Shown: positions 41,020 through 64,000 of the stretch, piece by piece
How positions within the stretch are numbered: the first letter of the stretch is position 1
Layout: each line of letters starts with the position of its first letter
Assembly: GCA_028281265.1 (NCBI GenBank)
Contig: JANQKE010000011.1
Location: forward strand, 1-64,000
DNA length: 64,000 nt
Direction: 5' to 3'
Source of the DNA: Alphaproteobacteria bacterium
GTDB taxonomy: Bacteria > Pseudomonadota > Alphaproteobacteria > DSM-16000 > Inquilinaceae
The notes under the pieces: generated by a model
The model's database searches: none
What the model saw: only the letters and a program-made list of their open reading frames with translations
What the model was told of the DNA's origin: nothing
Position numbers and translations under genes: made by a program

Positions 41020-42222
41020 TCAGCCCTCGATCCCGATATCCTCGGCCGGCAGCAGAAGGCCGAACCGGCGCGGCCCACCGGCCGGACGTCGCTGCGCCAC
41101 GCCGATGCGGTGAGCGAGATACGGGTTGTCGATCTTCTGCTTCAGCAGACGCCCCAGCTTGGATTTCGCTTCGGTAACGAACCGCTCCAGCGCCTCGAAG
41201 CGATCGGCCGTCGGGTCGCGCCTGACATCGGCCAGCCGCGCCGACAACGCCTCGGCGCGGGCGCTGCCGGTCAGGAACGCCTGCTCGTAGAACCGGGCGA
41301 AAGTCCTCACGGCCGCGCCGTCGGGGTCGCGGAAACCGTCCATCGTCACCCAGCCGTAATGACCGTCGCCGACCCCGTCCGGGCCGGCCCCCGGCCAGCC
41401 ATCGACCGCGGCCGTCGCCAAGGTGGCGTACAGGGCGAACTCCCGGTGCGGCAGAACGATGTCCATCGATCCGATACGGAGCGTCCGCGCACCGCACCGG
41501 AGGGTGACCCCCGACAGGTCGAGCGCGTCCTGCACCGCGCGGACGACGCTGCGGTAATCCACCGCCGGGCCGCTGAGCGACCCCCGCTTCACGAACCGGT
41601 TGAGCCGGATGAACGGTGTGGGCACCAGATCCACCCGGGCCGCCCCGACCCCGGTGGGCAGCGGCCGACCGTCACGATCGGGGACCGTCGCCTCCGGCTG
41701 GCCGGGCCACCAGAAATCCGGGCACGTCTCCAGCGCAGCTGGTTCGACCAGCACATGGGAGAGGCTGTCCTGCTCCCGGCCGAACAGCATCAACGCGGAA
41801 TGGTCGTAGCAGGTCATCGACTTGCGGCCCCCCGCCACGGAGACATGCACCCGCGTTTCAGGCCGGGCGGTGAACCGCTCGACCAGCCGGGTGACATGAT
41901 TGGCGTAGGCGATCGTCTCGGCCTCGGTCCGGATGTCGGCGATCGGCCCCCCGTCCGCACCGGTCGGCACGGTCACCGACAGGCGGGCGGGCGGCACGCC
42001 CTGCTGCCGCATCAGCGTCGCCAGACGACCGGCCAGATCCTGCCGTTCGAGCCGATCGCGGCTCGCCGCGGTGGCCACCAGATGGATCTCGGACGGGATG
42101 AAGACGTCACGCTTGCGGTGGCCGGGGTCGATCAGATGCTGCGGGTTCATCAGCGCCCAGACGGTCTCGGTCACCACCTGCGGCGCCAGGCCGATCGACC
42201 CGATCAGCACATCCTTCGTCAT
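41020..42222 (-). CDS. NE0113-family (TIGR02584-like) CARF protein
   Basis: 400 residues. The CARF N terminus is clear: VLIGSIGLAPQVVTETVWAL, EIHLVATAASRDRLERQD, and VHVSVAGGRKSMTCYDHSAL, the second nucleotide-binding strand-loop. This matches the NE0113 family of CRISPR-associated CARF proteins. The C-terminal part is helical with a putative winged-helix or linker, and no HEPN or PD-D/ExK motif stands out. It may bind or degrade cyclic oligoadenylate. It is transcribed divergently from the cas2-cas1-cas2 cassette. Confidence 0.8.
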   Translation of the reverse strand: MTKDVLIGSIGLAPQVVTETVWALMNPQHLIDPGHRKRDVFIPSEIHLVATAASRDRLERQDLAGRLATLMRQQGVPPARLSVTVPTGADGGPIADIRTEAETIAYANHVTRLVERFTARPETRVHVSVAGGRKSMTCYDHSALMLFGREQDSLSHVLVEPAALETCPDFWWPGQPEATVPDRDGRPLPTGVGAARVDLVPTPFIRLNRFVKRGSLSGPAVDYRSVVRAVQDALDLSGVTLRCGARTLRIGSMDIVLPHREFALYATLATAAVDGWPGAGPDGVGDGHYGWVTMDGFRDPDGAAVRTFARFYEQAFLTGSARAEALSARLADVRRDPTADRFEALERFVTEAKSKLGRLLKQKIDNPYLAHRIGVAQRRPAGGPRRFGLLLPAEDIGIEG

Positions 42223-42363: not shown

Positions 42364-42645
42364 ATGACGCGCAACCGGTTGTACCTGATCGCCTATGACG
42401 TTCCCTGTCCCCGCCGGCGCGCCCGGGTGCTGCGGGCGGTGAAGGCCCATGGCGTGGACGGGCAGAAATCCGCCCATGAATGCGCGCTGACCCGGCGCGC
42501 CTATCGGGACCTCCGCCGCAGCCTCGACCGGGTGATGGATCGTGGGGCCGACCGGCTGCTGGTGCTCCGGCTCGACCCGCGCAGCCCGATCGACGGCCTG
42601 GGCATCGCACGGCCCGCGACCCCGGACTGGTTCTACATCGGTTAG
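42364..42645 (+). CDS. cas2: Cas2, first copy
   Basis: 93 residues: NRLYLIAYDVPCPRRRARVL carries the first strand and conserved Asp 12. ECALTRRAYRDLRRSLDRVM and DRLLVLRLDPRS follow, in the standard Cas2 ferredoxin fold order. Cas2 dimerises between Cas1 dimers in the spacer integrase. It is 18 bases upstream of cas1. It differs strongly from the second cas2 that follows cas1. Confidence 0.85.
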   Translation: MTRNRLYLIAYDVPCPRRRARVLRAVKAHGVDGQKSAHECALTRRAYRDLRRSLDRVMDRGADRLLVLRLDPRSPIDGLGIARPATPDWFYIG

Positions 42646-44111: not shown

Positions 44112-44192
44112 GTGTTTACAATTAGATGCGATTCATTCTCACTAACACCACCTCCAAGCCCTTGGAATCAGGGTGCTTTCTAGGGGTCAGCG
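44112..44192 (+). promoter_or_regulatory. CRISPR array 1 leader
   Basis: 81 nt immediately before the first repeat, with TGTTTACAATT and ATTCTCACTAACAC near its start and GGGTCAGC at its end. It aligns without gaps to the 81 nt before array 2. It is expected to carry the array promoter and the Cas1-Cas2 docking site. Confidence 0.8.
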
Positions 44193-47100
44193 GTCCGGCC
44201 GAAGTCCTGAAGAAGAAGGAACTGAAACAGTTCAACGGGGTCGGGGGCAACATATTGTTGGTCCGGCCGAAGTCCTGAAGAAGAAGGAACTGAAACTAAC
44301 GTTGTCGCACGCCTCCGCGACGGTCAACCGTCCGGCCGAAGTCCTGAAGAAGAAGGAACTGAAACGGTGAACCAGAAGGTCTGGCTCGGGACATCGTGTC
44401 CGGCCGAAGTCCTGAAGAAGAAGGAACTGAAACATGATAGCGCTGCCCACGCTGGTCGGTTGTGCGTCCGGCCGAAGTCCTGAAGAAGAAGGAACTGAAA
44501 CAGCTCACACGCCGCCGCCACACCGGCGGATACAGTCCGGCCGAAGTCCTGAAGAAGAAGGAACTGAAACCCATGCCGGAGTCCACGACCGCATCGATGT
44601 CGTCCGGCCGAAGTCCTGAAGAAGAAGGAACTGAAACGTTTTGCCAGCGCCTTGCGCAACTTGTTGCCCGTCCGGCCGAAGTCCTGAAGAAGAAGGAACT
44701 GAAACTTCAGGAACGGCCCGTGGGTACGGCGGCTGCGGTCCGGCCGAAGTCCTGAAGAAGAAGGAACTGAAACGACACGGATGACTTCAGCACTCTTGCG
44801 AGCGCGTCCGGCCGAAGTCCTGAAGAAGAAGGAACTGAAACTCGGCCGGCCGCGTGGTGGCGGCGATGGTCCCAGGTCCGGCCGAAGTCCTGAAGAAGAA
44901 GGAACTGAAACGATGTTTTGGTCCCTTTCCCAAGGGGACCAAAGTCCGGCCGAAGTCCTGAAGAAGAAGGAACTGAAACAGAACTTCGGTATCCTTACGT
45001 TTTCTTCCCAGGTCCGGCCGAAGTCCTGAAGAAGAAGGAACTGAAACACGCGCATGGCGCCCTCCTGTGTTAAGGTTCAGTCCGGCCGAAGTCCTGAAGA
45101 AGAAGGAACTGAAACAGGCAGGTCGCGACTAACACTAACTTCTCCATCGTCCGGCCGAAGTCCTGAAGAAGAAGGAACTGAAACGCCTGGGCCACGCGGC
45201 TCCTGAGGTCTGCCCGTCCGGCCGAAGTCCTGAAGAAGAAGGAACTGAAACAAATCGACGAGGGCGATTCTTTCCCCCCTCTCGGTCCGGCCGAAGTCCT
45301 GAAGAAGAAGGAACTGAAACATGAAATGGATACATGGTTCAGTCGCTGGCGTCCGGCCGAAGTCCTGAAGAAGAAGGAACTGAAACGTGAACACGGTGTT
45401 CACGATGATGTGACGATTAGTCCGGCCGAAGTCCTGAAGAAGAAGGAACTGAAACCGAAGCCCTCCGCCAGACACGTGATGTATTCGTCCGGCCGAAGTC
45501 CTGAAGAAGAAGGAACTGAAACCTGGTGTCATGACTGGCAGCTCGGTCAAGTTTGTCCGGCCGAAGTCCTGAAGAAGAAGGAACTGAAACGAGACTACAC
45601 GCCGAATACCTCGCATGAATAGTCCGGCCGAAGTCCTGAAGAAGAAGGAACTGAAACACGGCGGCCGTCGCTGCCCTCGAGCGTATTACGTCCGGCCGAA
45701 GTCCTGAAGAAGAAGGAACTGAAACCCGAAAACCCTGGTGTGGCGGCGACGGTAGCGGTCCGGCCGAAGTCCTGAAGAAGAAGGAACTGAAACCAGCCGC
45801 CTCGCGCGGCCTCCCATGGCGGCGATGTCCGGCCGAAGTCCTGAAGAAGAAGGAACTGAAACCCCAAGCTGAATCCAAACGACGGGGCACTGCGTCCGGC
45901 CGAAGTCCTGAAGAAGAAGGAACTGAAACATCCAGTTCACGCCGACGTTGTCTGCCGCCAGTGTCCGGCCGAAGTCCTGAAGAAGAAGGAACTGAAACGG
46001 TAGACCGAACTTGGTCACGATGAACCATGAGTCCGGCCGAAGTCCTGAAGAAGAAGGAACTGAAACCTGCCGGCGGCGGTGGCGGAGCGGCTACGGGGTC
46101 CGGCCGAAGTCCTGAAGAAGAAGGAACTGAAACGCACCGGGCCGAGCGCTTGGAGACCGAGGTCGAGTCCGGCCGAAGTCCTGAAGAAGAAGGAACTGAA
46201 ACTTGTGCGATGGCCATCATCTGCTGCACTTGCTGTGTCCGGCCGAAGTCCTGAAGAAGAAGGAACTGAAACGCTCCCTCGTGCGGTACTGGACGAGCAT
46301 GTTGAGTCCGGCCGAAGTCCTGAAGAAGAAGGAACTGAAACTTTCTTCGTCGGTGTCATCGGCAGGCATGAGGGTCCGGCCGAAGTCCTGAAGAAGAAGG
46401 AACTGAAACTTTACTCGAGGAACCCGCCTCCCTAGGTAAAAGTCCGGCCGAAGTCCTGAAGAAGAAGGAACTGAAACAAACCGGCCAGGACACAGCAGAC
46501 CCAAAATGTCGTCCGGCCGAAGTCCTGAAGAAGAAGGAACTGAAACGTATGGTGAACCGTCAGGACCAATACGTTCGTCCGGCCGAAGTCCTGAAGAAGA
46601 AGGAACTGAAACTTGGCGCACTCAGCCATAAGCCGCCTTCTAGGGTCCGGCCGAAGTCCTGAAGAAGAAGGAACTGAAACGTAGCGGTGTTCTTGTATAT
46701 TCACCACCATCTGTCCGGCCGAAGTCCTGAAGAAGAAGGAACTGAAACGGCAAGCCTTTGCCAATATCGTCTCTGACTGTGTCCGGCCGAAGTCCTGAAG
46801 AAGAAGGAACTGAAACCCTCGGAGAGGTGCCGGCGACGAGCAAAGTACGGTCCGGCCGAAGTCCTGAAGAAGAAGGAACTGAAACCGAGGTAGCACCACG
46901 ACTGGCCGGTCAGTTGCCGTCCGGCCGAAGTCCTGAAGAAGAAGGAACTGAAACGCGCCCTTCGTTCGCTACCCGCGCCCACACACGTCCGGCCGAAGTC
47001 CTGAAGAAGAAGGAACTGAAACAAGGGAGCACTGGCCGAGATGATGCCCCGCGACCGTCCGGCCGAAGTCCTGAAGAAGAAGGAACTGAAACATAAGGTA

Positions 47101-47500
47101 GGGGGGTATTTGAACCCCCCCGTCCGGCCGAAGTCCTGAAGAAGAAGGAACTGAAACATACGGGTACCGTTTGTTGGCAAGCGGTAGTAGTCCGGCCGAA
47201 GTCCTGAAGAAAAAGGAACTGAAACAGTGATTCGAACCTTAGTGGGCCACCGTAGCGTCCGGCCGAAGTCCTGAAGAAGAAGGAACTGAAACCTGCCTCC
47301 CGGCCCCAAGCTCAGATTCTTTTCGTCCGGCCGAAGTCCTGAAGAAGAAGGAACTGAAACCTGGACCAGGAGCCTGCGCGGTAACCCCCCAAAGTCCGGC
47401 CGAAGTCCTGAAGAAGAAGGAACTGAAATGTGCTGGGCGATAGCGGGTCGACATTCAGCCAGGGTGCGGCTGAAGTTCTGAAGGAGAAGGAACGGAGAAT
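44193..47500 (+). CRISPR. type III CRISPR array 1, 48 repeats plus a degenerate terminal copy
   Basis: 36-nt repeats start GTCCGGCCGAAGTCCTGAAG and end GGAACTGAAAC; spacers are 29-34 nt and the repeat period is 65-70. The last full repeat (47394-47429) ends in T instead of C, one repeat (47190) has a GAAAAAGG variant, and a strongly decayed copy lies at 47464-47500. Decay at the right end and the leader at the left give + strand transcription. The final eight bases ACTGAAAC fit the canonical type III 5' handle. Confidence 0.98.
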
Positions 47501-47702: not shown

Positions 47703-48818
47703 CTATCCGTGCAGGGCCGCGTCCAGGCGGTCGACATGGCACAGGTCGCCGGCGAAATGCAGATACAGGCGCCGGGCGTCCTGGTCGGACCAGGCGTTGG
47801 CTTCGTGCGTGCTGGGCCGCATCGCCCCGGACCGGACCGGGCGCACCGCCAGGCGGTCCGGGTTGGGGCGGTCCGGCCGCTCCATGAACCGGGCGAGCTC
47901 GTCGATCCGCGTGTTGAGCTCGACCCGCCGGTCCCGCTCCAGCGCCCGGGCCGCCCGGACCACGGCATCGGCGATCCGCACCTGCGGGCTGGGGGAGGGC
48001 AGCACCGCTTCGCCATAGACGTCGTCGCGGCAGGCGATCCACAGCGTCTCCCCCCACCCGGACAGGGCGCTGGCCCCGTCCAGCGTGAGGGTCAGCGTCT
48101 CCGGCAGGGCCGACAGGTCCCCGGCCGCGACCGGAAGGCCGAGGGCGAGCCGCCGCACGATGCCGACATGGGCGCGCAGCACATCGTCGGGGGTGAAGCG
48201 GACCGGCAGGCGCGGGATGCGTAAAAGCGGGTTCGCCCCCTGATAGATGTACACGCACTCGTCGGCCGTGAACGTGCCCAACGTCTGCAGGAAGCCCTGG
48301 ACCAGCTTGAAGCCGCCGGTCAGGTTGAACACCACCCGATAGCCCCGGTCGCGATAGGCCTGCGCCGCCATCTGGATGCTCCGCGCCAGATCCGCCAGGC
48401 CGCTCTGGGCGCGGACCGGATCGTCGGTCACCAGATCCGGGATCACCCGGCATTCGGCCGACTGGCCGTGGGTCTGCAGCCATGCGGCGATCAACCCGGC
48501 GGCGGTCTCGCCCAGCCAGGTGGGGGTGACCACCAGCAGGTGATGGTCGGGCGGACCGGCCGGCACGGCCGGGCCGGCGGCGGCCTGATAGGTCAGGATG
48601 CCGTTGAGCTCGGCGCTCAGCGCCCGGGCCTGGTCCGGCGTCGTCTCGGCCATCTCCTGCCGCCGCCGCTCGATCCAGCCGGTGATGGCGGCGCGGTCGT
48701 CAGCCGGGACCTGGCCTTCCGCGGCGTTGGCGTAGCGATGCAGCACCCCGGCCCGGTCACCGGCCCGGTTGGTCAGCGAACTCGTACCGCAGGTCGACAC
48801 GATGAGCGTGTTGGTCAC
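47703..48818 (-). CDS. APE2256-type CARF protein (Csx family)
   Basis: 371 residues starting at GTG (GGGAGGCCGGCA upstream). NTLIVSTCGTSSLTN is the CARF signature of TIGR02619/APE2256 proteins. LLVVTPTWLGETAAGLIAAW and VVFNLTGGFKLVQGFLQTLG supply the second strand-loop. The C-terminal portion contains RRLYLH, which fits R-x4-H, the HEPN pattern, but the context is too short to call a nuclease. It is the last gene of the cas operon. Likely cyclic oligoadenylate binding; effector or ring nuclease. Confidence 0.75.
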   Translation of the reverse strand: MTNTLIVSTCGTSSLTNRAGDRAGVLHRYANAAEGQVPADDRAAITGWIERRRQEMAETTPDQARALSAELNGILTYQAAAGPAVPAGPPDHHLLVVTPTWLGETAAGLIAAWLQTHGQSAECRVIPDLVTDDPVRAQSGLADLARSIQMAAQAYRDRGYRVVFNLTGGFKLVQGFLQTLGTFTADECVYIYQGANPLLRIPRLPVRFTPDDVLRAHVGIVRRLALGLPVAAGDLSALPETLTLTLDGASALSGWGETLWIACRDDVYGEAVLPSPSPQVRIADAVVRAARALERDRRVELNTRIDELARFMERPDRPNPDRLAVRPVRSGAMRPSTHEANAWSDQDARRLYLHFAGDLCHVDRLDAALHG

Positions 48819-48846: not shown

Positions 48847-49779
48847 TCACCCCATGAAGCCGGCGAAATCCACGCGCATGTCGTAGAATTTCGCTTCACC
48901 GTCGGGGTTGAGGTAGCTCATCTTGGTCTTGGTATTCAACGTCACCATTGCCGCGGCGATACTGAATGTCTTCTGTCCGGATGTGCAATCGATACACACC
49001 TGTTCCTCCGTCACATATGTCGACATCGTTACTTCCCGCACAATTCTTCTTAGATTCTTATACATGAAATCGTAGTCTTCATATATCGATCGTTTTGATG
49101 TCGATTCGGCCGCGGTGTTGGCAGAACGGGAGAAACGTGGATCGAACTCCAGTGTGATCGTGGAATCGGAGCCGAACAGCGTGGAAAAATACGCCTCGAA
49201 CTGCTCGCTCTGCCGTACGCTCTGCTCGGATGGGATGACGATCACGCGCTTCAGGTGATGTCTGTGGGCATGGATTGAGCGAATGTTCTGTTGCCATGGG
49301 GAGGATAGTATCCTTGATCCTTCCGGTCGGTTTTGGTTTTGGTTTCGCTCTTTGAAATCATGTGTGTTGAGCACGAGATCCTGGAGATGTGACGGTTCCG
49401 TCGACTCCACGAGGTTCTGCGCGCTTTCGGGCTCTCCCGGCTTGGGATCGTTCTCGTCCTTGATCTTCGACAGCCCCATGATGAGCACCGTCGGCGGGGT
49501 CTCCAGCTCCGTCGTCATCCGGGCCGTGCTGGTGACGATCCTGTTGGCGACCTTCACCGCGATACGGACGAGCCCATAGATGCCGCCAAGGGAGACCGCG
49601 GCGACCACCAGGTCGATGGCTTCCCAGGCCGGCGGCTGTACCAAATGCGCATCCGGATGCCGCAGCCGGTAGAACAGCGCGTCGCCGCCCCATGTCAGCA
49701 GCGCACTGCCATAGCCGCCCAGGACGGTCGTGAAGACCGCCAAGCCGACGATGACCACGACGATCAGCAGCAAGGTCAT
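48847..49779 (-). CDS. membrane-anchored CARF-like protein
   Basis: 310 residues. Two N-terminal membrane helices (LLLIVVVIVGLAVFTTVLGG and AIDLVVAAVSLGGIYGLVRI) are followed by a soluble CARF-like domain: TVLIMGLSKIKD, RVIVIPSEQSVRQSEQFEAY, and CIDCTSGQKTFSIAAAMVTL, the Asp/Thr-Gly-x-Lys strand-loop of CARF folds. It follows cas7-insertion after 10 bases. Membrane CARF proteins such as Cam1 act in type III immunity by altering membrane potential. Here the CARF domain follows the helices. Lower GC than its neighbours suggests a recent addition. Confidence 0.7.
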   Translation of the reverse strand: MTLLLIVVVIVGLAVFTTVLGGYGSALLTWGGDALFYRLRHPDAHLVQPPAWEAIDLVVAAVSLGGIYGLVRIAVKVANRIVTSTARMTTELETPPTVLIMGLSKIKDENDPKPGEPESAQNLVESTEPSHLQDLVLNTHDFKERNQNQNRPEGSRILSSPWQQNIRSIHAHRHHLKRVIVIPSEQSVRQSEQFEAYFSTLFGSDSTITLEFDPRFSRSANTAAESTSKRSIYEDYDFMYKNLRRIVREVTMSTYVTEEQVCIDCTSGQKTFSIAAAMVTLNTKTKMSYLNPDGEAKFYDMRVDFAGFMG

Positions 49780-49789
49780 TATTGGGCTC

Positions 49790-52552
49790 TCACCGCCGCC
49801 CGCCCCGCGACGCCGGCTCGGGCCACAGGGGCAAACCCTCGCCGTCGGCCAAGGCGGCCAGCCCCACCCGGTTGCCGGCGGGCGCATCCTGACCGGTTCT
49901 TTCGTTCCGGGTGAACCACTCGAAGTTCTTGCCTTCGGGATCGGGCCGTTCGGCCGCACGGGGGTAGTGGATCGGCAGATCGTCCTCCGGCCCGCAGGCG
50001 GCGGCCAGGAAGGCCTTGATGAACGCTACGTCGGCAAACCCGTCCGCCTGATCCGGATAGCACTTGCCGATCGCTTGTCGGAACCGGTCGATGAACCGCT
50101 TCGCCGCCGCGCGTACCTTGTCGGTGCCGCCGGCGGTCGCGGCATCGATGCGGCAGCGATCACCGTCGGCCGCCATGGCGGGGTCGGGTGCGAGCAGGAA
50201 CGACAGATACTCCGCGCGCTTGCCCGACCCATTGGCGAGGTCCAGGCCTTCGAGCCGCACCCGGGTGCTGCCGAAGCCCAGCGGCTTGCCACCGCCGAGC
50301 CGCAGCACCGGATCCCCTTTGACCGTCGGGTCGTCGGGCAAGGACAACAGCCACAGCAGCGCCCCCAGCTCCGCGTCATCGAGGTTGACCACGTCGATCC
50401 AGGTGGAGAACCGGGTGCCCGGGCGGACCCAGGCCTTGATCGACCGGTTCTGGTCGTCGCGCAGCTCGCCCGGGTTCTTGGCGCGGCGGCGATACTCCCG
50501 ATAGACGGTCTGCCGGCCGGCGGTCAGCGCCTGCGGCTGTGCCGGCGGTTCCTTACCGGCGGCCTGGGGGTCCCAATAGGTCTCCGCCAGCCCGGCCCGG
50601 TCGAGATAGGCCGGGTGCGGGTAGACCTTGCGGCCGCGCAAGCCCTTATGGGCGGCATAGGCCGCGTCGGCCTTGCTGAGATGGTCGGCCTGCGGCGTGC
50701 CCTCCTTGTCCTTGCCGACATAGAACCGGGCCTGCTGCGGCTTGGGCGTCGACAGGATCGCCAGCGGCAGGGGATCGGCGAACCGGTCGATCGCCCGCTC
50801 CACCGCCGTCTCACAGGTGATCGGGCCGATCCGCAACTGCCCGCGCCAGGCTCCGTCCCCGGCCTGGCTGGCCCAGCCGAACACCCGATCGGCGGGGGAA
50901 AGCTGCCGGAACCGCTTGACGTGGGTGGTCACGTCCCCTTTCGCCGCCGGTTGTTCCAGCTTGGCCGGCAGCAGCTCAGGCGGCAGCAGGGTGGACGGCG
51001 GTACGTCCGCCAGTTCCCGCGAGATCATCACGGGGTAGAGGGCGACGACCGCATTGCCGTCCATCTTGGCGTAGCCCAGGGTGCCGGCTTCGAGCTTCCG
51101 GTCTTCGGGCGTGTAGACGTGACGCGACCAGGCGGTCTTGCCCGGCTCGTGGCCGAGGAAGCGGTCGGGGGGCTCCTTCCGCTTCTTCAGATCGTCTTCG
51201 TGGGTCTTCTGATAGTTGGCGATCAGCTCCCGCCAGGCCTTGCCGAGGTCCTCCATATCGGCCGCAACCCGGCGCGGCCGCTGGTTGGGTAGGGTGAAGA
51301 ACACCCGCTCATCATGTTTGCCGCCGATATTCTGGTTGGTCACGCAGACATGGCCGTCGACCCGCAGCAGCGGTTCTCCGCCGACCGGCCGGTGGTTGCG
51401 GCTCCCCCACCGGGACGGTTGCGGCTTGGGCAGAGTGTCCCGGTCCTTCCGGCCGATGGCGATCACCCGCCAATAGGTGAAGCCGCGGACATGCTCGTAA
51501 AGCTGTAGCCAGCAGGTCACCGGGTCGCGATGGGCGGGCAGTTCGCCGTCCGGATAGCGGACCGCATGACGGTCGATGCCGCCCTGCCTGGCGATGTACC
51601 GCGGCAGCCAGGCCGCGTACATCGTCGCCGGCTTGGCGGTGACCTCACGCCGGTCCCCCAACCACAGCTCGATACCGCCGCCGTCATCGGTCACCCGGGC
51701 CGGGACGACGGATAGGCCGCCGCGCGCCTCCATCCGGTGGGCCAGGCGATCCTCGTGCCCGGTGAACACGGCCAGCCGCGAATTGGTGATCGCCTCATAG
51801 GCCGCGCGCAAGGCCCCCTTGAGCGAGGTCGGCGGCAGATAGGGGCCACCGCCCCGCCCGGTGCGCAGATCGAAGGTCTTGTGGCCGTCCGAGCGGGTCT
51901 CGGCCGAGCCCGCGTCGGGGATCAGCATCGGCGTCACCGCCTCCAGGCCGATGCGGATGCGGCCCGTCCACCGATCCTCATGGTAGCGGTCGTGCCCCTT
52001 GGGTGCGCCTTGCTTCATCCCGTCAGCACAGGCGCCCTCGGTCCCCATGGCGGGCGGCCGGTCCTCATGGTAGCGGTCGTGCCCCTTGGGTGCGCCTTGC
52101 TTCATCCCGTCGGCACAGGCACCGTCAGTCCCCATGGCGGGCGGCACCGCCGGGATGAAGTTGTAGGGATTGTGAAACGCTGCCGGCGGCCGCTGCGACG
52201 GTCGGGGCCGATCGGTGTTGCGCCCGGCACCCGCCGCGTGCCGGCCGGGACCGGTCGGTCCGCGGCTCTGGGTCTTCTGCTGGACCGGCGGCGGCGGCGG
52301 GGCGGTGCTTCCCGCCCAGGCCTCGCCTGCGGGACGGATGCGCACCTTCCGGCCGCCATGGTCTTCGAAATCGACCGCCTGTTCGGTGTCGCTCGGGGTC
52401 TTCAGGGACGGGGCGAGCTGTGCGCGGTCCTTGACCTCGCTTTCGGCCGGGTTGCCCTTTTTCGACTGGAAGCACAGATAGGGTCTGGGGGTAGGGTCGG
52501 CGCCCTGTCCCGGTTTCCAGACCAGCGTGCCGCGCTGCGGATCGGCCATCAC
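49790..52552 (-). CDS. Cas7-insertion RAMP protein (TIGR03986-like)
   Basis: 920 residues. A long low-complexity N-terminal part contains PYNFIPAVPPA. The RAMP core then starts RIRIGLEAVTPMLIPDAG and has GGPYLPPTSLKGALRAAYEA, the Cas7 glycine-rich loop. Central and C-terminal segments (YAKMDGNAVVALYPVMISRE; LRLGGGKPLGFGSTRVRLEG) fit TIGR03986. This is the subunit called Cas7-insertion in the Synechocystis III-D variant. A tandem duplication lies at 136-193. Overlaps csx19 by four bases. Confidence 0.8.
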   Translation of the reverse strand: MMADPQRGTLVWKPGQGADPTPRPYLCFQSKKGNPAESEVKDRAQLAPSLKTPSDTEQAVDFEDHGGRKVRIRPAGEAWAGSTAPPPPPVQQKTQSRGPTGPGRHAAGAGRNTDRPRPSQRPPAAFHNPYNFIPAVPPAMGTDGACADGMKQGAPKGHDRYHEDRPPAMGTEGACADGMKQGAPKGHDRYHEDRWTGRIRIGLEAVTPMLIPDAGSAETRSDGHKTFDLRTGRGGGPYLPPTSLKGALRAAYEAITNSRLAVFTGHEDRLAHRMEARGGLSVVPARVTDDGGGIELWLGDRREVTAKPATMYAAWLPRYIARQGGIDRHAVRYPDGELPAHRDPVTCWLQLYEHVRGFTYWRVIAIGRKDRDTLPKPQPSRWGSRNHRPVGGEPLLRVDGHVCVTNQNIGGKHDERVFFTLPNQRPRRVAADMEDLGKAWRELIANYQKTHEDDLKKRKEPPDRFLGHEPGKTAWSRHVYTPEDRKLEAGTLGYAKMDGNAVVALYPVMISRELADVPPSTLLPPELLPAKLEQPAAKGDVTTHVKRFRQLSPADRVFGWASQAGDGAWRGQLRIGPITCETAVERAIDRFADPLPLAILSTPKPQQARFYVGKDKEGTPQADHLSKADAAYAAHKGLRGRKVYPHPAYLDRAGLAETYWDPQAAGKEPPAQPQALTAGRQTVYREYRRRAKNPGELRDDQNRSIKAWVRPGTRFSTWIDVVNLDDAELGALLWLLSLPDDPTVKGDPVLRLGGGKPLGFGSTRVRLEGLDLANGSGKRAEYLSFLLAPDPAMAADGDRCRIDAATAGGTDKVRAAAKRFIDRFRQAIGKCYPDQADGFADVAFIKAFLAAACGPEDDLPIHYPRAAERPDPEGKNFEWFTRNERTGQDAPAGNRVGLAALADGEGLPLWPEPASRGGRR
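51973..52146. repeat. 87-bp tandem duplication within the Cas7-insertion gene
   Basis: Two 87-bp units give 29-residue protein repeats (PPAMGTDGACADGMKQGAPK followed by GHDRYHEDR). They are almost identical and in frame, inserted between YNFIPAV and the first core strand. Confidence 0.9.
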
Positions 52553-53184
52553 GCGCCTCCCTGCTCGGATCGTTTAGGAGCATAGGCCTCGAAGCCGGTC
52601 AGGCGCTGGTCGACCACGGCGACGTTGCCATGTGGCCCGGTCTCCAGATACTCGACGGCCGTCAGCCAGAGACGCCGGCGGTCCGTATCCGGCCCGACAA
52701 ACGGCACCCAGAGCCGGCCGATCCGGTTGCTGGTCAGTGCGGTCCAGCCCGCCGGATCTGTCGTCTCCTTCTCACCCCACAGCACATAATGCTGGGACAG
52801 CCGGGCGTGGAGCGGTCGGGTCCCTGTCTCCCCACTATCCAGTCGCTGCCGCAGGATGTCAGGCGCCCGATCTCCCTTCGCCAGCATCGCCGCAGCACCG
52901 GTCATCCCGTCGCGCAGCCACCGGAGTTCCCAATCCGCGCAGAACAGCTTGATCTCATAGGCCTGGGCGCGGACGGCATCCGTGAACGAAGAGTGCTGGC
53001 CGAGCTTGAAGCCGGGCGGGCCTTCGAGCCTCCCGCCGCCTGTCATCCGGCCGAACACGCAGAAGCGCGGCGCATAGATCAACGCGGCGACGCCGATCGC
53101 CGGCACATTGCCAGCGGCGGCCAGTAGGTCTTCGAGGGCCACACCGCGTGCCGTCCAGGTGTGAAGCTGATGGGCTTCGGTCAT
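52549..53184 (-). CDS. csx19: Csx19-like subunit
   Basis: 211 residues. AYEIKLFCADWELRWLRDG is the characteristic motif of the TIGR03984/Csx19 group, and the protein has the size and gene position of Csx19 in III-D variant systems: between Cas7-2x and Cas7-insertion. Overlaps both neighbours by four bases. It is thought to be a structural subunit of the effector complex. Confidence 0.75.
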   Translation of the reverse strand: MTEAHQLHTWTARGVALEDLLAAAGNVPAIGVAALIYAPRFCVFGRMTGGGRLEGPPGFKLGQHSSFTDAVRAQAYEIKLFCADWELRWLRDGMTGAAAMLAKGDRAPDILRQRLDSGETGTRPLHARLSQHYVLWGEKETTDPAGWTALTSNRIGRLWVPFVGPDTDRRRLWLTAVEYLETGPHGNVAVVDQRLTGFEAYAPKRSEQGGA

Positions 53185-55055
53185 CCCGCCATCCCCTCCT
53201 CACCGCAGCAGCGACGCCAGGCGGTCTGAAACGCCGCCAGCCGCACATCGATGCGGGTGCCGGTGCCGAGGGAAGAGGGCCCGAAGCTCTCTTGCGTCAG
53301 CGTCAGATCGTCGAGCTCCTTCAGGCCGTCCTGGCCCAAGCTTGCATCGTCCGGGGCCGTCACCGTGAAGGCGATGCTCTCGACCGCGATCGCCCCCAGC
53401 CCGCGATTGCCGCCGAAGCCGATGGGGATCCGCTGGAACAGCAGGTCCCGCAAGACCAGCAGCAACAGGGCGACGGCCGATTGCCGCCAGGCGATGGGGT
53501 CCTTCTCCAGCCGCTCCCATCCCGGGTCCGCGCCGTCGGCCGGGGGGCAGGCCAGCCGGGTCGGGTCCAGGCTGAGGCGGATCGGCTCCCAACGGACCGG
53601 CCCGGGTTCGAGGACGCTGTAGAGGAGGTGCTCGGCCGCCCCGCCGGTCCAGCGGTCGATGGCGACATGGGTGACGGGGGTGAACCCGCTCAACCCGGCC
53701 GCGGCGAGGGCCTGGTTCAGGCTGGTACCCCGCTTCGCTTGCCGTTGGGCTTTCGGCGAGTCGGTTTGCTCCTCGACCGCGGCCGCATCCTGTGCCCGGA
53801 CGATCGCCTGCCACTGCTCCGGCGTGACATGGGCGGCGGCGGTGGCGAAGCAATCATCGACCGACACCGCACCCAGGCCGGGGCGTATCGGCTCGGGACC
53901 GTCTCGCTCGGACCGCTTGTCGTCGTCTTCGCCTTCGCTGCCCGTGTCCCCCGTCTCGGCGCTGCCCCGACCTTTCTCGCCACCGCTGCCCTTGCCCTTC
54001 GGCGCCGGTGCACCGAACAGGCTCTCGGCCAGGGCGAACGTCGCGAGATGCTCCAGGAAACGGTTCTGGCCGCCGGTTGGGTTGGGGTTCCGGCAGATCC
54101 GCAGCACGGTCCCCAAGATCCGCTCCGCCTGGCTGCGCAGAGCCCCCTTGAGAGACGAACCCGGCAACACCGGCGCCATCCGGTCGCCGATGCCGCTGAA
54201 CAGCGGCACCATATCGACGGCGATGCCCTCGACATCGGATTTCACCATGACCGGGCCGACCGGTTCCCATTTGATGGTCACGTCGATGCGCGGGCGGACC
54301 CTCGGCCGCGGTTCGGTGCCGTCGGCCCCCGCCAGCAAGGCCTCGATGGTCAACACCGTGCCGGCCGTTGCGGTCTTGCCGGCCGACAAAAGGGCGAGCA
54401 CACCGTCGGCCGTATCCAGCACCTGCTCGTGGATGGCGACATCGGGCTCCAGCCGGACCCGGCCCAGGCCGCGGGTCTTGCCTGCCCCCAGCCGGACCGC
54501 GCCGTCGCGCAACGAGGCCAGGAGATGTCCCAGCGCCAGCTTGACCACCGCGGGGTCGACACGGGTCGCCGGCACCTCCACCGTCATGTCCAGCGCGATC
54601 CGGCTGCCGACCGGCAGGATCTGCCGGTCGTATTTGATCCGGTCGGCGGCCCGCCCCTCGACCCGGTCGATGCCCACCCCGTCGCGGATCTCTAGCGCCC
54701 CGGACGGGGTCACGCGGGCGTCTTCCACGATCACGAAGCTCGCCATCCCGGCTTTGGCGTCGGGCTCCCCACGGTCGGGCGTGAAGCCCCAGAGCTGGGC
54801 GGCGAAGCTCTTGCCCTTCACACCGGTCACCGGATCGCCGACCTTCCCGAGCCACGCCTCGTCGGCGCAGGCCCAGGCGTGCCAGGCGCGCAAGGCCCCG
54901 GCCAGGCTGGTGCCCGGCAGATAGGGCCGGCCTCTGCCGTCGAGGGCCACCGGCAGGTCCGTGGCGATCCGCGACCCCGCCCCGCCGACATGCAGCGGGG
55001 TGACGGCGACCAGCGTGCCGACGACCCGGAAGCGACCGTGCAGCGGCCTAGCCAT
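53181..55055 (-). CDS. Cas7-2x, fused double Cas7/Csm3-like protein
   Basis: 624 residues with two Cas7 modules. Module 1: GTLVAVTPLHVGGAGSRIAT, D33 as candidate RNA-cleaving Asp, then GRPYLPGTSLAGALRAW and LGAGKTRGLGRVRLE. Module 2 starts about 258 with VTIKWEPVGPVMVKSDVEGI and has MAPVLPGSSLKGALRSQAER and IGFGGNRGLGAIAVESI. An acidic, low-complexity linker (GSEGEDDDKRSERDG) separates parts of module 2. Two backbone subunits in one chain is the III-Dv arrangement. Overlaps cas7-5-11 by eight bases. Confidence 0.87.
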   Translation of the reverse strand: MARPLHGRFRVVGTLVAVTPLHVGGAGSRIATDLPVALDGRGRPYLPGTSLAGALRAWHAWACADEAWLGKVGDPVTGVKGKSFAAQLWGFTPDRGEPDAKAGMASFVIVEDARVTPSGALEIRDGVGIDRVEGRAADRIKYDRQILPVGSRIALDMTVEVPATRVDPAVVKLALGHLLASLRDGAVRLGAGKTRGLGRVRLEPDVAIHEQVLDTADGVLALLSAGKTATAGTVLTIEALLAGADGTEPRPRVRPRIDVTIKWEPVGPVMVKSDVEGIAVDMVPLFSGIGDRMAPVLPGSSLKGALRSQAERILGTVLRICRNPNPTGGQNRFLEHLATFALAESLFGAPAPKGKGSGGEKGRGSAETGDTGSEGEDDDKRSERDGPEPIRPGLGAVSVDDCFATAAAHVTPEQWQAIVRAQDAAAVEEQTDSPKAQRQAKRGTSLNQALAAAGLSGFTPVTHVAIDRWTGGAAEHLLYSVLEPGPVRWEPIRLSLDPTRLACPPADGADPGWERLEKDPIAWRQSAVALLLLVLRDLLFQRIPIGFGGNRGLGAIAVESIAFTVTAPDDASLGQDGLKELDDLTLTQESFGPSSLGTGTRIDVRLAAFQTAWRRCCGEEGMAG

Positions 55056-57630
55056 CGATCCTCTCCCGTTGCCGGGCCGGCGATCCGTGATCGTGATCGT
55101 GATCGCCGGCCGGCCGCTCGATCGACCGCTTGTGGGCCTGCATCGCGGCCAGCAGCAGGTCGCGGACGGCGGCCTGACGGAACCGCTCCCGCAAGCGGTC
55201 CCGGTCGGTCACCAGGGGGGCCGGCGGGGGTGTCCCGAGTTCCTTCAGCCACGTCCAAATCCTGGCCGCGTCGTCGGGTCCTTCAGGGTCAAGCAGCGTC
55301 TTGAGTGCGGCGCGGGCCTTCTGCCCCCATTTGTCGGCCCGGGCGGGGCTCTCGGTCATCTGGGCGAACCACTGCCTGGCACTGGCGACGTCATGCGCGT
55401 CGGCATAGGCGCCCATGGCGGCGCGGAGCGCGCCGAGCTGGCTCATCGGCGGTTTGGGTCTGCCGTTGGCGGTGTCCCAGTGCAGCGACTTCTTTCGCCA
55501 GGTGTCGTCATTGGCCAGGGTGAACGCGGCCTCCTCGACGAACGCTTCCCACGCCGCCGTCTCGACCGCCTTGGCGAAGCGCCGGGTGGGGTCGTCTTTC
55601 GGCAGTCCAGCCAGGGGTGGGGGTAGTGCCTCGGCTCTCCGTTCCGGTCGGTCCTTGCGTGAGGAGCCCGACCAGCCCGAAGCCTTGCCCGTCAGATGGG
55701 GCGGGTTGATCCACACCTCCCCGAAGCCTTCGGCCCGGCGTTCCCCCAGCCCGTTGCGCTCCAGCGCCTCCAGCGCGGCGCCCGGCACCGGCTCTGCCGC
55801 TCTCACCTTGACGAACGATCCGGCTTGCAGCGCGATCAGGCTCGGCCGCGGCAACTGCCAGGCCGCCACCCAGCTTTCCAGCCGGCGGAGACGCAAACCG
55901 TAGGTGACCTGATCCGGCGTCGTCGGCTCAACCGCCTCGACCGTGACCCCCAGCGCGTCGCCCAAGGCCGTCACCCAGTCGCCCAGGGCACTGCCGGTGC
56001 CCAACAGGGGGGAACGCAGCAGGACATCCGAGGTCAGCCAGACCGTGAACGGCTTGTTGGCCGCCTGGTCCTTACGCCCACTGTTCCCGGCCTTCACCGC
56101 CGGCCCGGCGCTCAAGCGGACGACGCCGTAGCCGGCCTTGGTCGCCCGCCCCAAGCGCAGCTCCACCGGGTCGGTCGGCGCCACGGCCGCCTGCCAGTTC
56201 GGCAGCCGGCGCGCCACGCCCGTGCGCACCCGCACCAAGGCCCGGTAGCGGACGCGGCCGGGGCTGATCGCCTCATAGCTGTAGACACCGTTTTCGGTCG
56301 GCCGCTGGACGGCATCGTCGATGCGGTTATGGGTCCGGACCACGGTGTCGACCGCCGTCAGCAGCGTCGGCCGCTCCGCGTCGTAGCGGACATAGCCCGA
56401 CCGCATCGGTCTGGTCTGACCTTCGGGAGTCAGCAGCTTCGGCCGCTCCGCGTCGTAGCGGACATAGCCCGACCGCATCGGTCTGGTCTGACCTTCTGTT
56501 CGGGGGCGCTCGACGAGCCGGTTGTAGATCTTGCCTTTGCCGTCCGGCCCGCCGGTGTCGTCCTTCTCCCGCTGCCAGGCCAGGGGGATCGGCAGGCTGC
56601 GCTCGCCGCCGAGGATCGGGGTGGCGTGGCCGACCCGGATGTCACCGGCGGTGATCGCGGCGGAGACCGGCGGGCCGCCCTGGACGACCGTCTCGAGACG
56701 CTTGGCCACATAGGGCAGCAGGTAGGTGCCGGGGATGAAGTCGAAGCTGGTGACGACGTTGCCCAGCACCGCCTCGGCGATCACCAGCGGCGTCACCAGG
56801 TCGAGATCGAGCGCCACCGTCTCCCACCCGTCGGCCGGGGTCGCGGCCCCGAACGCCGGGGCCGGGGTCGGAGCCGGGCCGTCCGGTGCCTTCGGTGCCT
56901 CCTGCTTGAGCACCGCGATCGCCGTGTTCAGATCGCGGACCGGCGGGTTTTGATGATCGATGGCGATCGACCAGGTGCTGCGGCCGGCCCCGCGGCGGCG
57001 CTTGCCGCCCAGACGCTCAACCATCCCCGTCGAGCCGACCAGCACCGCCGCCAGCGCCCGGTTCCAACGATCGCCGGGATCGCCGTGCAGCAGCAGCCGA
57101 CCTTGGGCGGTCAGCACCGCCCCCTGGCGCGCCACCTCCTCGAACCGCAGGAATTTGGGCGTCACCCGACCGGATTGCGGGTCGATCTGCACGCCGGGTT
57201 TGACGAAGGTCAGCGCCTGACGCAGCCGGCGGCGGCCCGGATCGGTGTCGCCGCCCTGCGCCTGCTGCCACAGGGCGTCGCGCAGGTCCTGCGGCAGCCG
57301 GCCCGCGGCGATGCTGAGGCAACCTGGTTTCGGCGTACCGCCGTCCGGCACGGTCCGGTCGACCGGCTGGTCGCCGAACAGCGCCTCGACCAGCGCGGCC
57401 CATCCGGACGTCGAGCCCGTCGTGCCGCCATCGAGGCCATAGGCCAGCCGCTCGGCCGCGTCGCGCCAGATCCCCCGCACCGTGGAGGCCGGGATGAACG
57501 GCAGATCGTCCACGTCCCGTTCGATCAGCCGGTCGATGGCGCCGTGCCGGCCGCCGCCGGTGCCGACATGCCAGTCCGACCGCATGGTGATCGTCAGGGT
57601 GAAGGCGATCTCGGTGGGCGAAGGGCTCAT
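55048..57630 (-). CDS. Cas7-Cas5-Cas11 fusion protein
   Basis: 860 residues. N-terminal Cas7/Csm3 module (TLTITMRSDWHVGTGGG, candidate catalytic D33, DLPFIPASTVRGIWRDAAER, KRRRGAGRSTWSIAI). A Cas5/Csx10-like module from about 270 (VALDLDLVTPLVIAEAVLGN, FDFIPGTYLLPYVAKRLETV, TKAGYGVVRLS). An alpha-helical C terminus from about 690 (AFVEEAAFTLANDDTWRKKS, LGALRAAMGAYADAHDVASA) fits Cas11. Such a triple fusion is the hallmark of the III-Dv complex. A 24-residue tandem duplication sits at about 379-426. Starts two bases after the cas10 stop. Confidence 0.82.
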   Translation of the reverse strand: MSPSPTEIAFTLTITMRSDWHVGTGGGRHGAIDRLIERDVDDLPFIPASTVRGIWRDAAERLAYGLDGGTTGSTSGWAALVEALFGDQPVDRTVPDGGTPKPGCLSIAAGRLPQDLRDALWQQAQGGDTDPGRRRLRQALTFVKPGVQIDPQSGRVTPKFLRFEEVARQGAVLTAQGRLLLHGDPGDRWNRALAAVLVGSTGMVERLGGKRRRGAGRSTWSIAIDHQNPPVRDLNTAIAVLKQEAPKAPDGPAPTPAPAFGAATPADGWETVALDLDLVTPLVIAEAVLGNVVTSFDFIPGTYLLPYVAKRLETVVQGGPPVSAAITAGDIRVGHATPILGGERSLPIPLAWQREKDDTGGPDGKGKIYNRLVERPRTEGQTRPMRSGYVRYDAERPKLLTPEGQTRPMRSGYVRYDAERPTLLTAVDTVVRTHNRIDDAVQRPTENGVYSYEAISPGRVRYRALVRVRTGVARRLPNWQAAVAPTDPVELRLGRATKAGYGVVRLSAGPAVKAGNSGRKDQAANKPFTVWLTSDVLLRSPLLGTGSALGDWVTALGDALGVTVEAVEPTTPDQVTYGLRLRRLESWVAAWQLPRPSLIALQAGSFVKVRAAEPVPGAALEALERNGLGERRAEGFGEVWINPPHLTGKASGWSGSSRKDRPERRAEALPPPLAGLPKDDPTRRFAKAVETAAWEAFVEEAAFTLANDDTWRKKSLHWDTANGRPKPPMSQLGALRAAMGAYADAHDVASARQWFAQMTESPARADKWGQKARAALKTLLDPEGPDDAARIWTWLKELGTPPPAPLVTDRDRLRERFRQAAVRDLLLAAMQAHKRSIERPAGDHDHDHGSPARQRERIDG
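56357..56496. repeat. 72-bp tandem duplication within the cas7-5-11 fusion
   Basis: Two copies of about 68 bp with period 72 (56357-56424 and 56429-56496) encode EGQTRPMRSGYVRYDAERP followed by K/T-LLT. In frame, with only a few differences, so recent. Confidence 0.92.
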
Positions 57631-57632
57631 GA

Positions 57633-59564
57633 CTACTTGCCCCCCTCCAGCTCCGCCAGCGCCATCGCGTCCAGCAGCCAGGTGCGGACGATGTCGGGCG
57701 GAGGTTCTTCGCCTTCTGCCGGTGGGGTCCGACTCATTGGCGGATCGTCGAAGAACAGGCGCCGGGTGCCGTCTCGGCCTTCGCCGGCCGGATGCAGGGC
57801 GCTCCAGTGGACGTCGCGGTAGCGGTGTCGGATCTGGTCGCACCGGGCCTCCGCCGTCGCCGGCCCCAGGAAGACGCCTTCGCGCAAGTAATGCTGTTGG
57901 GTCCGGGGCAGCAACCCGCGGTCATCATCGTCGCGCTCCTCACCCGCCCGCAAGGCGATGGCGGCCTGACGAAGACCCGATCGGCACTTGTCCCCCTCCC
58001 AGAGCCGATTGATGGTCCAGCAGCACCGGTCTTCGGCGGTTGGCCAGCCGTTTGCCGTCTTTTGTGGCAGGCCGTCGAGCACGGCCAGCGGAGTTGTGAT
58101 GAAGGGTCCGCCCGCCAACACCACCACCGGATCGCGGTTCTCGTTCCGTGTTGTCCGATGCTCCCGAAGGGCATCGAGATCGGCGCCGGAGCTGTCGAAA
58201 TGGACGTGGAAATCGAGCGCCGAGCAGAACCGGCCGACATTCCGCTTCACCGACTTCGCCGATCGGCACAGCGCCTCGGCCAGCTCGTAGGCCCGGTGGG
58301 CGGGGAAGTGCGGCTTGACCACGGCGATGCCGGCGCAGGCGGACAGGCCGGGGCCGCCGGTCACCGCCTTCGCGATGGCCGGGAGCGCATCCCCGAACCG
58401 CTTCGAAGGCCGGCCCGTGAGCCTTTCGAACGCTTGCAGGAACGTCGCGGCGAAGTCGATCGCCCGCTGGCCGTCGCAGACCGCGGTCAGATCGTCGCCG
58501 CCGAGGATCACGGGCACGAGGGGGACGGATTTTCTCTTCTTCTCTTTCTTGCCGTCACCTTGCGTGTCTGCATCCGCATTCTCCTTTACCGTGACCGGCG
58601 GCGGGAGCAGCTTGTCCATCGCGGTCTCGACGGCCTTGATCGTGCAGTGATCCAGATGCAGCGACAGCTTGCGATAGTCGTCGATATACGACCGGGCATT
58701 GTGGAGGTCAGGGCGCCTGGCCGTTTCGCGAGCGTTCTGGAAGTCCTGGAAGATCCTGCCGAGCTCGTTGCCGTCGGCATGGATGTAGGCCAGCCAGTCG
58801 GCATCGAACGCTTCGAGGTCCTGGATCGACACTTCCGGGACGACACCGCCCAGCTCCCCAAGCTGCCACAGCCTTGCCCGCGCCCGCTTCAACTGGCAAG
58901 TCTTGGCCTTGACCGGCGGCGACATCAGGTAGGTGTCGGTGCCCACCGTCCCTTCTTCAGAGGCCGGCAACCCGCTGGTGGTGCAGACTTCCGTAACCGG
59001 CAGCAGCGGAAACCGGGCCGCCGGCGCCGGCAGCAGGGCCCGGGTGGTCTCCAGGGTCTGGTGAACGGTCCGCACCACCTCGTGGAGGGTCTCCGCCTTG
59101 CCGAACCGGAACGGCTCGGACACCACCCCACACACCGCAACCCCCGGCGCCTCTGTCAGCGCCCGGCAGGTGACCCGCCGGACGATCTCCTCCCCGATGC
59201 CCCGCTCCTTGACCAGCAGCAGCGCCTTGCCGGAGGTGGCGACCAGGATCTCGACCGCTTTCTTCTCGTCCGTTCGCTTTTCGATGGGCGGGTTCGCGGT
59301 CTCCGCATCGAGCAGATACGCGCTGACCTTGGCCGTCGTCAGCACTTGTTGAGCCGTCTTGAAGCCGGGCGGCTCGATGCACTCGACGGGTGGCCGCTTC
59401 CGCCCCGTCACGTCCGCGGCGGCTTTCAGCACGAAGTCGACGCCGACCCTCCGGATGATCTCCGAGGCACCGATTTGCTCACGCAACCGGTTGGTGCCGA
59501 AAATATAGGCTTGATTGCCGGCCGTCTCGATCAGCACGAGATGGACGTCGACATCCTCGGTCAT
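57633..59564 (-). CDS. cas10: Cas10 without HD domain, GGDD polymerase
   Basis: 643 residues. The protein opens with a Cmr2-like palm (HLVLIETAGNQAYIFGTNRL, REQIGASEIIRRVG) rather than an HD nuclease. YIHADGNELG at about 260 and the active site VPVILGGDDLTAVCDG (GGDD at 355-358) follow, so cyclic oligoadenylate synthesis is expected while single-strand DNase activity is not. A Lys-rich loop (GDGKKEKKRKS) precedes the palm strand. ATG overlaps the RT stop by four bases, coupling the two genes. Confidence 0.92.
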   Translation of the reverse strand: MTEDVDVHLVLIETAGNQAYIFGTNRLREQIGASEIIRRVGVDFVLKAAADVTGRKRPPVECIEPPGFKTAQQVLTTAKVSAYLLDAETANPPIEKRTDEKKAVEILVATSGKALLLVKERGIGEEIVRRVTCRALTEAPGVAVCGVVSEPFRFGKAETLHEVVRTVHQTLETTRALLPAPAARFPLLPVTEVCTTSGLPASEEGTVGTDTYLMSPPVKAKTCQLKRARARLWQLGELGGVVPEVSIQDLEAFDADWLAYIHADGNELGRIFQDFQNARETARRPDLHNARSYIDDYRKLSLHLDHCTIKAVETAMDKLLPPPVTVKENADADTQGDGKKEKKRKSVPLVPVILGGDDLTAVCDGQRAIDFAATFLQAFERLTGRPSKRFGDALPAIAKAVTGGPGLSACAGIAVVKPHFPAHRAYELAEALCRSAKSVKRNVGRFCSALDFHVHFDSSGADLDALREHRTTRNENRDPVVVLAGGPFITTPLAVLDGLPQKTANGWPTAEDRCCWTINRLWEGDKCRSGLRQAAIALRAGEERDDDDRGLLPRTQQHYLREGVFLGPATAEARCDQIRHRYRDVHWSALHPAGEGRDGTRRLFFDDPPMSRTPPAEGEEPPPDIVRTWLLDAMALAELEGGK

Positions 59565-60583
59565 CCGGGACCCCCCTGACCCGATCCATCGTTTTTACCG
59601 AGATTACGATAATCTGGTGCGCACGCAAGTCGGGAAATCGACAAGGTTGCCGGAATCTCGTCCCGGCCCCCTCGCGCGGCAGGCGCCGACGGGTCATCAC
59701 CCTCCGTCTCGGCCGCGGGCGGCAGCGGTGTCACCGCGGCCCCGTGGAACCGGTGGCCGAGGAACTCGAACCCCCGGGCAAAGGTGGTGACGTCCGTCTT
59801 GTCCGGGTGCAGCGCCAGGCCATAGGTCGCCAGAACCGCCGTCAGCCGCGTCCGGCACGCTTGCGCTGCCGCCCGATCCCGGCACAGCACGACGAAATCG
59901 TCGGCATAGCGGACCAGCCGGCTGGTCTTCCGATCGATCGCCCGGTCCACCGGATCGAGATAGAGATTGGCCAGCAGCGGGGAGATCGGGGCCCCTTGCG
60001 CCACCCCATACGCCCCCCATTTGCCGATCCGGGCCTGGCGGAACCCGGCCAGCCAGCCCGCCACCAGCCCGCGCACCGCCGGGCAGTCCACCCGGCCGGC
60101 CAGGGCCCGCAGCAGCGGGCCGTGCGGGATCGTATCGAAATAGCGGCGGATGTCGCCGTCCACCACCCATCCACAGCCCCACAGCCGATAGGTCGTCACC
60201 CGGCCGATCGCATGCGCCACCGACCGGCCGCGCCGATAGGCGAAGCTGGCGTCCGACAGGGTCGGGTCGATCAGCCGGTCCAGTTCGATCGCCGCGGCCG
60301 TCTGCACCACCCGATCGGCCACCGCCGGGATCGCCAGCACCCGCTGCCCGCCATCGGGTTTCGCCAGCACCGCCCGACGCAGCCGGCCCGGCCGATAACG
60401 GCCGTCGAGCAAGGACCGGGACAGTGTCGCGATGGCCTGCTCGCTGTCCGCGGCGAAGGCCACGACCCCATCCTGGTCCGGCCGGCCGGACCCGGCGGCG
60501 GCGCGGGCGTTGCGCCGCACCCGGCGCCACGCTTGCCGCAACGCCGACGGGGCCGCCAGACGCTCGAACAGGGCTGAGACCAC
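59561..60583 (-). CDS. stand-alone CRISPR-associated reverse transcriptase
   Basis: 340 residues from a GTG preceded by GAAGGGGGGTCC. Polymerase motifs: LLDGRYRPGRLRRAVLAKPD, RVLAIPAVADRVVQTAAAIE, GDIRRYFDTIPH (D144, D150), QGAPISPLLANLYLD, RLVRYADDFVVLC (YADD 226-229), then GLALHPDKTDV and GFEFLGHRF. This is group II-intron-like RT core only: no maturase or endonuclease domain is seen. It is translationally coupled to cas10, so it belongs to the CRISPR operon. Related RTs fused or adjacent to Cas1 capture spacers from RNA. Confidence 0.92.
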   Translation of the reverse strand: MVSALFERLAAPSALRQAWRRVRRNARAAAGSGRPDQDGVVAFAADSEQAIATLSRSLLDGRYRPGRLRRAVLAKPDGGQRVLAIPAVADRVVQTAAAIELDRLIDPTLSDASFAYRRGRSVAHAIGRVTTYRLWGCGWVVDGDIRRYFDTIPHGPLLRALAGRVDCPAVRGLVAGWLAGFRQARIGKWGAYGVAQGAPISPLLANLYLDPVDRAIDRKTSRLVRYADDFVVLCRDRAAAQACRTRLTAVLATYGLALHPDKTDVTTFARGFEFLGHRFHGAAVTPLPPAAETEGDDPSAPAARGGRDEIPATLSISRLACAPDYRNLGKNDGSGQGGPG

Positions 60584-60839
60584 GGACCCCCCTTCACCGC
60601 GACGACAGGACCGGCCCCACGGCCGGACGATCGCCCCCGTCATAGCCGAAACGACCGCCCGCTCGGGAATTGGCAACCTTGCCGGAATGCCCATCGGCCG
60701 AAAGCGGCGCCACGATACGCCGCAAGACCGCCCTGCCGAGAGCATCCTGCGTCCGACCGGACACAGAGTTAAGAGGCTCGAATGTCCGCCGTGACACCGG
60801 GGCGCCCGGCGGCCCGCCGCGATGAGGAGGCATCCCCCC

Positions 60840-61828: not shown

Positions 61829-61909
61829 ATGTTTACAATTTGTTGCGAGTAATTCTCACTAACACGCCTCGTAAGCCATTGATTTTCAAAGGTGTTTTCG
61901 GGGTCAGCA
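61829..61909 (+). promoter_or_regulatory. CRISPR array 2 leader
   Basis: 81 nt ending at the first repeat: TGTTTACAATTTGTTGCGA, ATTCTCACTAACAC and GGGTCAGC are shared in register with leader 1. It is the likely array promoter and integration site. Confidence 0.8.
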
Positions 61910-63989: not shown

Positions 63990-64000
63990 CACCCCATCGC

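Follow-up and report, generated by a model that had tools for sequence, protein, structure and literature searches.

Gene organisation of the type III-D locus

The window, meaning the whole 64,000-nucleotide stretch of DNA analysed, carries a type III-D CRISPR operon on its minus strand, with the gene order reverse transcriptase (RT), cas10d, cas7/cas5-IIId, cas7-IIId, csx19, cas7-IIId (Csm3-like), a gene for a protein with two transmembrane (TM) helices and a CARF domain (2TM-CARF), and CARF7-RelE, followed by a CRISPR array (Table 1). The 2TM-CARF gene starts with an ATG at 49779 and stops at 48847, encoding 310 residues. It lies 10 nt downstream of the cas7-type gene, and CARF7-RelE begins 28 nt after it, so the gene is next to last rather than at the end of the operon, where a previous reading made from the sequence alone (the sequence-only reading) had placed it. 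A scan for sigma-70 promoters and terminators between the genes found none, a result consistent with a single transcript but no proof of one. Profile searches and a motif scan identified the Cas10 of this type III locus as one that bears the GGDD cyclase motif.

Table 1 Features of the 2TM-CARF gene and its operon (positions in the window)
Feature	Position	Strand	Details
2-TM + CARF effector gene (candidate)	48847..49779	-	310 aa; ORF, PADLOC PDLC01168 E=1.9e-18, homologs
TM helix 1, residues 3-21	49717..49773	-	mean Kyte-Doolittle 2.93; model helix 2-20
W30-x-x-D33 after TM1	49681..49692	-	alignment of full-length relatives
TM helix 2, residues 57-75	49555..49611	-	mean Kyte-Doolittle 2.05; model helix 51-81
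CARF domain (predicted), residues 95-301, six strands, Rossmann order	48877..49497	-	AF2 model, Foldseek
Enlarged polar loop, beta-1 (S104) to W162, inside CARF domain	49297..49467	-	57 residues
CARF motif D264-C-T-S-G-Q-K270	48970..48990	-	invariant D, T, G, K columns in alignments
CARF7-RelE (Cami1-like), last operon gene	47703..48818	-	PDLC01934 E=3.4e-95; Cas_APE2256 8.3e-22
Type III-D RAMP/Cas7, Csx19 (Cas11), Cas5 genes	49790..57843	-	
Cas10d	57840..59564	-	GGDD cyclase motif intact (residue 355), no HD dipeptide

Two membrane helices precede a predicted CARF domain

Hydropathy analysis revealed exactly two strong hydrophobic segments in the 310-residue protein (residues 3-21 and 57-75), the remainder being soluble, and with the CARF domain starting at residue 95 this agrees with the claim that two membrane helices stand ahead of a CARF-like domain. 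A stretch containing Lys and Arg follows TM helix 2. In the alignment, the window protein shares the Trp and Asp of W30-x-x-D33 with the 10 full-length relatives closest to it, and the Asp equivalent to D33 is missing in five remoter full-length relatives.

Because the AF2 model of the whole protein was too weak (pLDDT 66, with Foldseek top matches that were mostly noise), residues 89-310 were folded alone from an alignment of 18 sequences, resulting in a model with a pLDDT of 81.7 and a pTM of 0.81. This model places strands at residues 98-103, 178-183, 209-212, 261-264, 286-290 and 296-299, with helices between them. Ranks 1-24 of its Foldseek matches in the PDB are all CARF proteins, including Card1, Cam1, Cad1, Csm6, Cdn1, Cami1, Can2, Sis0455 and Sso2081, most of them with probabilities of 0.9-1.0 (0.92-1.00 for Card1, Cam1, Csm6, Cdn1, Cami1 and Can2). 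Despite the modest E-values (0.0035 upward) and TM-scores of about 0.34-0.40 by query length, such unanimity among the top matches of a predicted structure would be hard to get by chance. The soluble part also contains VCIDCTSGQKTFSIAAAMVTL, which aligns with a DxTxGxK signature that is invariant across every aligned family member. The CARF-like strands proposed by the sequence-only reading are therefore borne out, and the outcome named as contrary to it, a fold lacking a CARF-like Rossmann core, is not what the model of the soluble part (a monomer) predicts.

Csx23 and Cap1 likewise have two N-terminal TM helices (PMC11014256, PMC12642688), so the window protein might also be a TM effector whose sensor is non-canonical, either of novel fold or CARF-like with a tetrameric pocket. 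Csx23 combines its helices with a cytosolic cA4 sensor whose tetrameric fold is novel and unrelated to CARF (PMC11014256), while Cap1, a type III protein described in a preprint, continues into a cyclic oligoadenylate (cOA) sensor consisting of a smaller CARF-like domain with cA4 at the centre of the tetramer (PMC12642688). The predicted domain of the window protein, in contrast, matches canonical CARF structures throughout the top 24 Foldseek ranks, Csx23 is absent from the 50 matches listed for the CARF model, and the signature residues are invariant. Moreover, DUF4579, which is C-terminal in Cap1, has no Pfam match at E<=1 in the window protein, which terminates shortly beyond the last strand. 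A sensor of either non-canonical kind thus seems very unlikely here.

When the family profile was compared with PDB sequences, the best match was SSO2081 (7.6e-5), followed by Cam1 (1.2e-3) and Sis0455 (7z55, 0.014); the single sequence of the window protein gave only chance matches in the PDB, and a BFVD search returned nothing informative. Since SSO2081 is a CARF ring nuclease, and both it and the more weakly matching Sis0455 are in the Foldseek list, we considered whether the protein might be a membrane-tethered ring nuclease, in which the CARF domain would cleave cOA and damp the signal and the helices would merely serve as an anchor. No dedicated ring nuclease was identified among the locus genes examined, which also fits this idea. 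However, the helices are kept in full-length members and the W..D pair in the close clade, which is more than an anchor needs, and among membrane proteins of known structure Cam1 is the nearest. In addition, the related TM-CARF profile PDLC01940 has a separate Csx16 domain, and the window protein matches only positions 138-383 of its 390. Taken together, these observations make a tethered ring nuclease improbable, if less so than the non-canonical sensors.

A divergent member of a catalogued family

No model in Pfam or NCBIfam scored above threshold for the window protein. In PADLOC, on the other hand, residues 26-297 matched positions 19-191 of the 200 in CARF_2M, "CARF, 2 TMs" (PDLC01168; E-value in Table 1), and further matches were obtained with CARF8--CARF_CSX16_TM (4.1e-18), "Csx1 TM+CARF" (PDLC01053, 1.2e-17) and CARF8--CARF_TM (PDLC01947, 5e-15), each of the four covering both the membrane and the CARF parts. 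Judged by these profile scores the similarity is far beyond chance, and since a profile for two TM helices plus CARF exists, the architecture has already been catalogued. The CARF_2M, CARF8--CARF_TM and Csx1 TM+CARF families share with the window protein the two N-terminal TM helices, the C-terminal CARF domain and the location in type III loci, and the profile match runs nearly the whole length; the window protein differs from them in an enlarged loop after strand beta-1. It is thus a divergent but ordinary member of the catalogued two-TM CARF family, 18-30% identical to its full-length relatives in the alignment.

The loop accounts for the Ser/Asn-rich stretch that the sequence-only reading had described as a linker and offered, together with the helix-first order, as grounds for a different class. 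Strand beta-1 (residues 98-103), where VLIMGLS aligns with VILFLS of the relatives, precedes the stretch, which therefore is not a linker between the TM helices and the CARF domain: residues 105-161 form a loop of the CARF domain that leads from beta-1 to its first conserved helix. Its 57 residues make it the longest of the set, the one feature that favours a genuinely new class, but the length varies within the family, most close relatives having 22-28 residues and several other relatives 33-51. The order of parts is no more distinctive, because Cam1 of Nitrosococcus halophilus, from a III-A system, likewise has an N-terminal TM helix and a C-terminal CARF domain (PMC10808066), and PADLOC already has profiles for the architecture. 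A new class on these grounds is hence highly improbable.

Relatives are distributed patchily, as expected for defence genes. The family profile matched in three of 385 genomes of the class (the genome itself, one other strong match and one marginal), and a search with the window protein found no relative in 16 further genomes of the taxonomic family it comes from. Across the phylum, the CARF_2M profile matched in 21 of 398 genomes, a count that includes longer CARF proteins of other architecture, with carriers among Mariprofundaceae, Ghiorsea (Zetaproteobacteria), Desulfuromonadales, Geobacter and Brocadia, and a second phylum sample added five more full-length members. A single-protein pattern scan of genome contigs, a search of viral contigs and a tblastn search of plasmids each yielded zero relatives.

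The HMM search suggested along with the sequence-only reading did recover relatives in other type III loci, and in the neighbourhoods checked the gene directly follows the last RAMP gene. In locus L042 it comes after cas10d, cas7, cas5 and cas7-IIId and before RT-Cas1; in L041 it comes after cmr1, cas10, cmr3, cmr4 and cmr6, with RT-Cas1 two genes further on. The preceding gene is cmr6 in L044 and csm5-like in L048. An effector of one kind therefore occupies the same position in operons of types III-D and III-B, and perhaps also III-A. The RT differs in arrangement: L041 and L042 have it downstream of the 2TM-CARF gene as a fusion with Cas1, and in the window it is unfused and lies upstream of cas10d. 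The family profile showed no useful similarity to the neighbouring CARF7-RelE, and hence there is no sign of a recent duplication of the two CARF genes; CARF7-RelE itself matches the Cami1 structures 8phb/8phj weakly in sequence.

Base composition differs between the two halves of the gene

The sequence-only reading was right that the gene is low in GC (56.7% vs 66-73% in the other operon genes). This is limited to the CARF part (Fisher p=3e-4): the first 90 codons, encoding the membrane part, have a GC of 65.9% and a GC3 of 0.88, and the 220 codons for residues 91-310 have 53.0% and 0.68, this last value being below every sampled 220-codon window of the neighbouring cas genes (minimum 0.78, mean 0.87, sd 0.03). 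The CARF part may possibly be of foreign origin. Late recruitment, which had been read from the GC content, is compatible with these figures, but only half of the gene is low and seven of eight relatives likewise have a gene with less GC than its locus, so composition alone is no proof of it.

The low GC of the CARF half and the lack of a relative in the 16 genomes of the same family might instead indicate a recently transferred gene that is decaying and without function. Against this, the frame is intact, the signature residues are all kept, the operon spacing is tight and the neighbouring genes are intact, and we give this explanation very little weight.

A candidate cOA-gated membrane effector

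The PADLOC profiles, the fold model and the conserved neighbourhood together uphold the proposal of a membrane CARF effector belonging to a type III system. We think it probable that the protein is a CARF-TM effector gated by cOA, presumably cA4, which would form a pore or depolarise the membrane in the manner of Cam1 and Cap1, both of which depolarise membranes upon cA4 signalling (PMC10808066, PMC12642688). The likeness to Cam1 comprises the N-terminal TM part, the C-terminal CARF domain supported by fold and profile match, and the type III context; Cam1, however, has one TM helix, 206 aa and a III-A system, as against two helices, 310 aa and III-D here. Cam1 has a pore-lining Asp in its TM helix; in the window protein, W30-x-x-D33 after TM1 is conserved in the close clade.

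Since HD occurs in only 3% of III-D Cas10s, type III-D is believed to work chiefly through cOA (PMC11229360). At this locus, binding of phage RNA by the type III-D complex would lead the Cas10d cyclase to make cOA, most likely cA4, which the cytosolic CARF domains would bind as a dimer or a dimer of dimers. Movement of the CARF domains could then open a pore built from two TM helices per subunit, and by analogy with Cam1 and Cap1 this bundle of paired helices would depolarise the membrane and stop growth, with the neighbouring Cami1-like CARF-RelE meanwhile shutting down translation. A more speculative idea, which we hold to be doubtful, is that the 57-residue polar loop and the W..D pair after TM1 make the protein a two-TM CARF channel that is gated or limits itself (slow cOA cleavage being one example) in a way that differs from Cam1 and Cap1.

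To our knowledge, only a few type III CRISPR membrane effectors have been studied experimentally, namely Cam1, Csx23, Cap1 and CorA, and our literature search found no experimental study of a two-TM canonical-CARF family member. With such a protein, a Cami1-like predicted translation blocker and an HD-less Cas10d at one locus, the operon offers a clean test case for whether two cOA effectors with different targets act together.

Other features of the locus

The stand-alone RT (59561-60883, minus strand; RVT_1 3.3e-31) lies directly upstream of cas10d, and its match to the Cas1_IIIb RT-Cas1 profile is confined to the RT half. Neither Cas1 nor Cas6 was found among the scanned ORFs of the window, and a Cas2 domain is located near the first array (about 42379-42579, plus strand). 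Two CRISPR arrays with an identical repeat flank the locus (44193-47500 and 61909-64000), and beside each is a sequence that is 79% similar to the other (44113-44164 and 61830-61881). Beyond the array, the third CARF protein of the region (41020-42216, minus strand; CARF5 / Cas_NE0113, E=1.9e-61) could be another effector, a regulator or a ring nuclease. Finally, two RAMP genes contain tandem duplications, at 51971-52144 (87 bp, 94% identical) and 56357-56496 (72-bp period, 99% identical), both of which are multiples of three and look recent.
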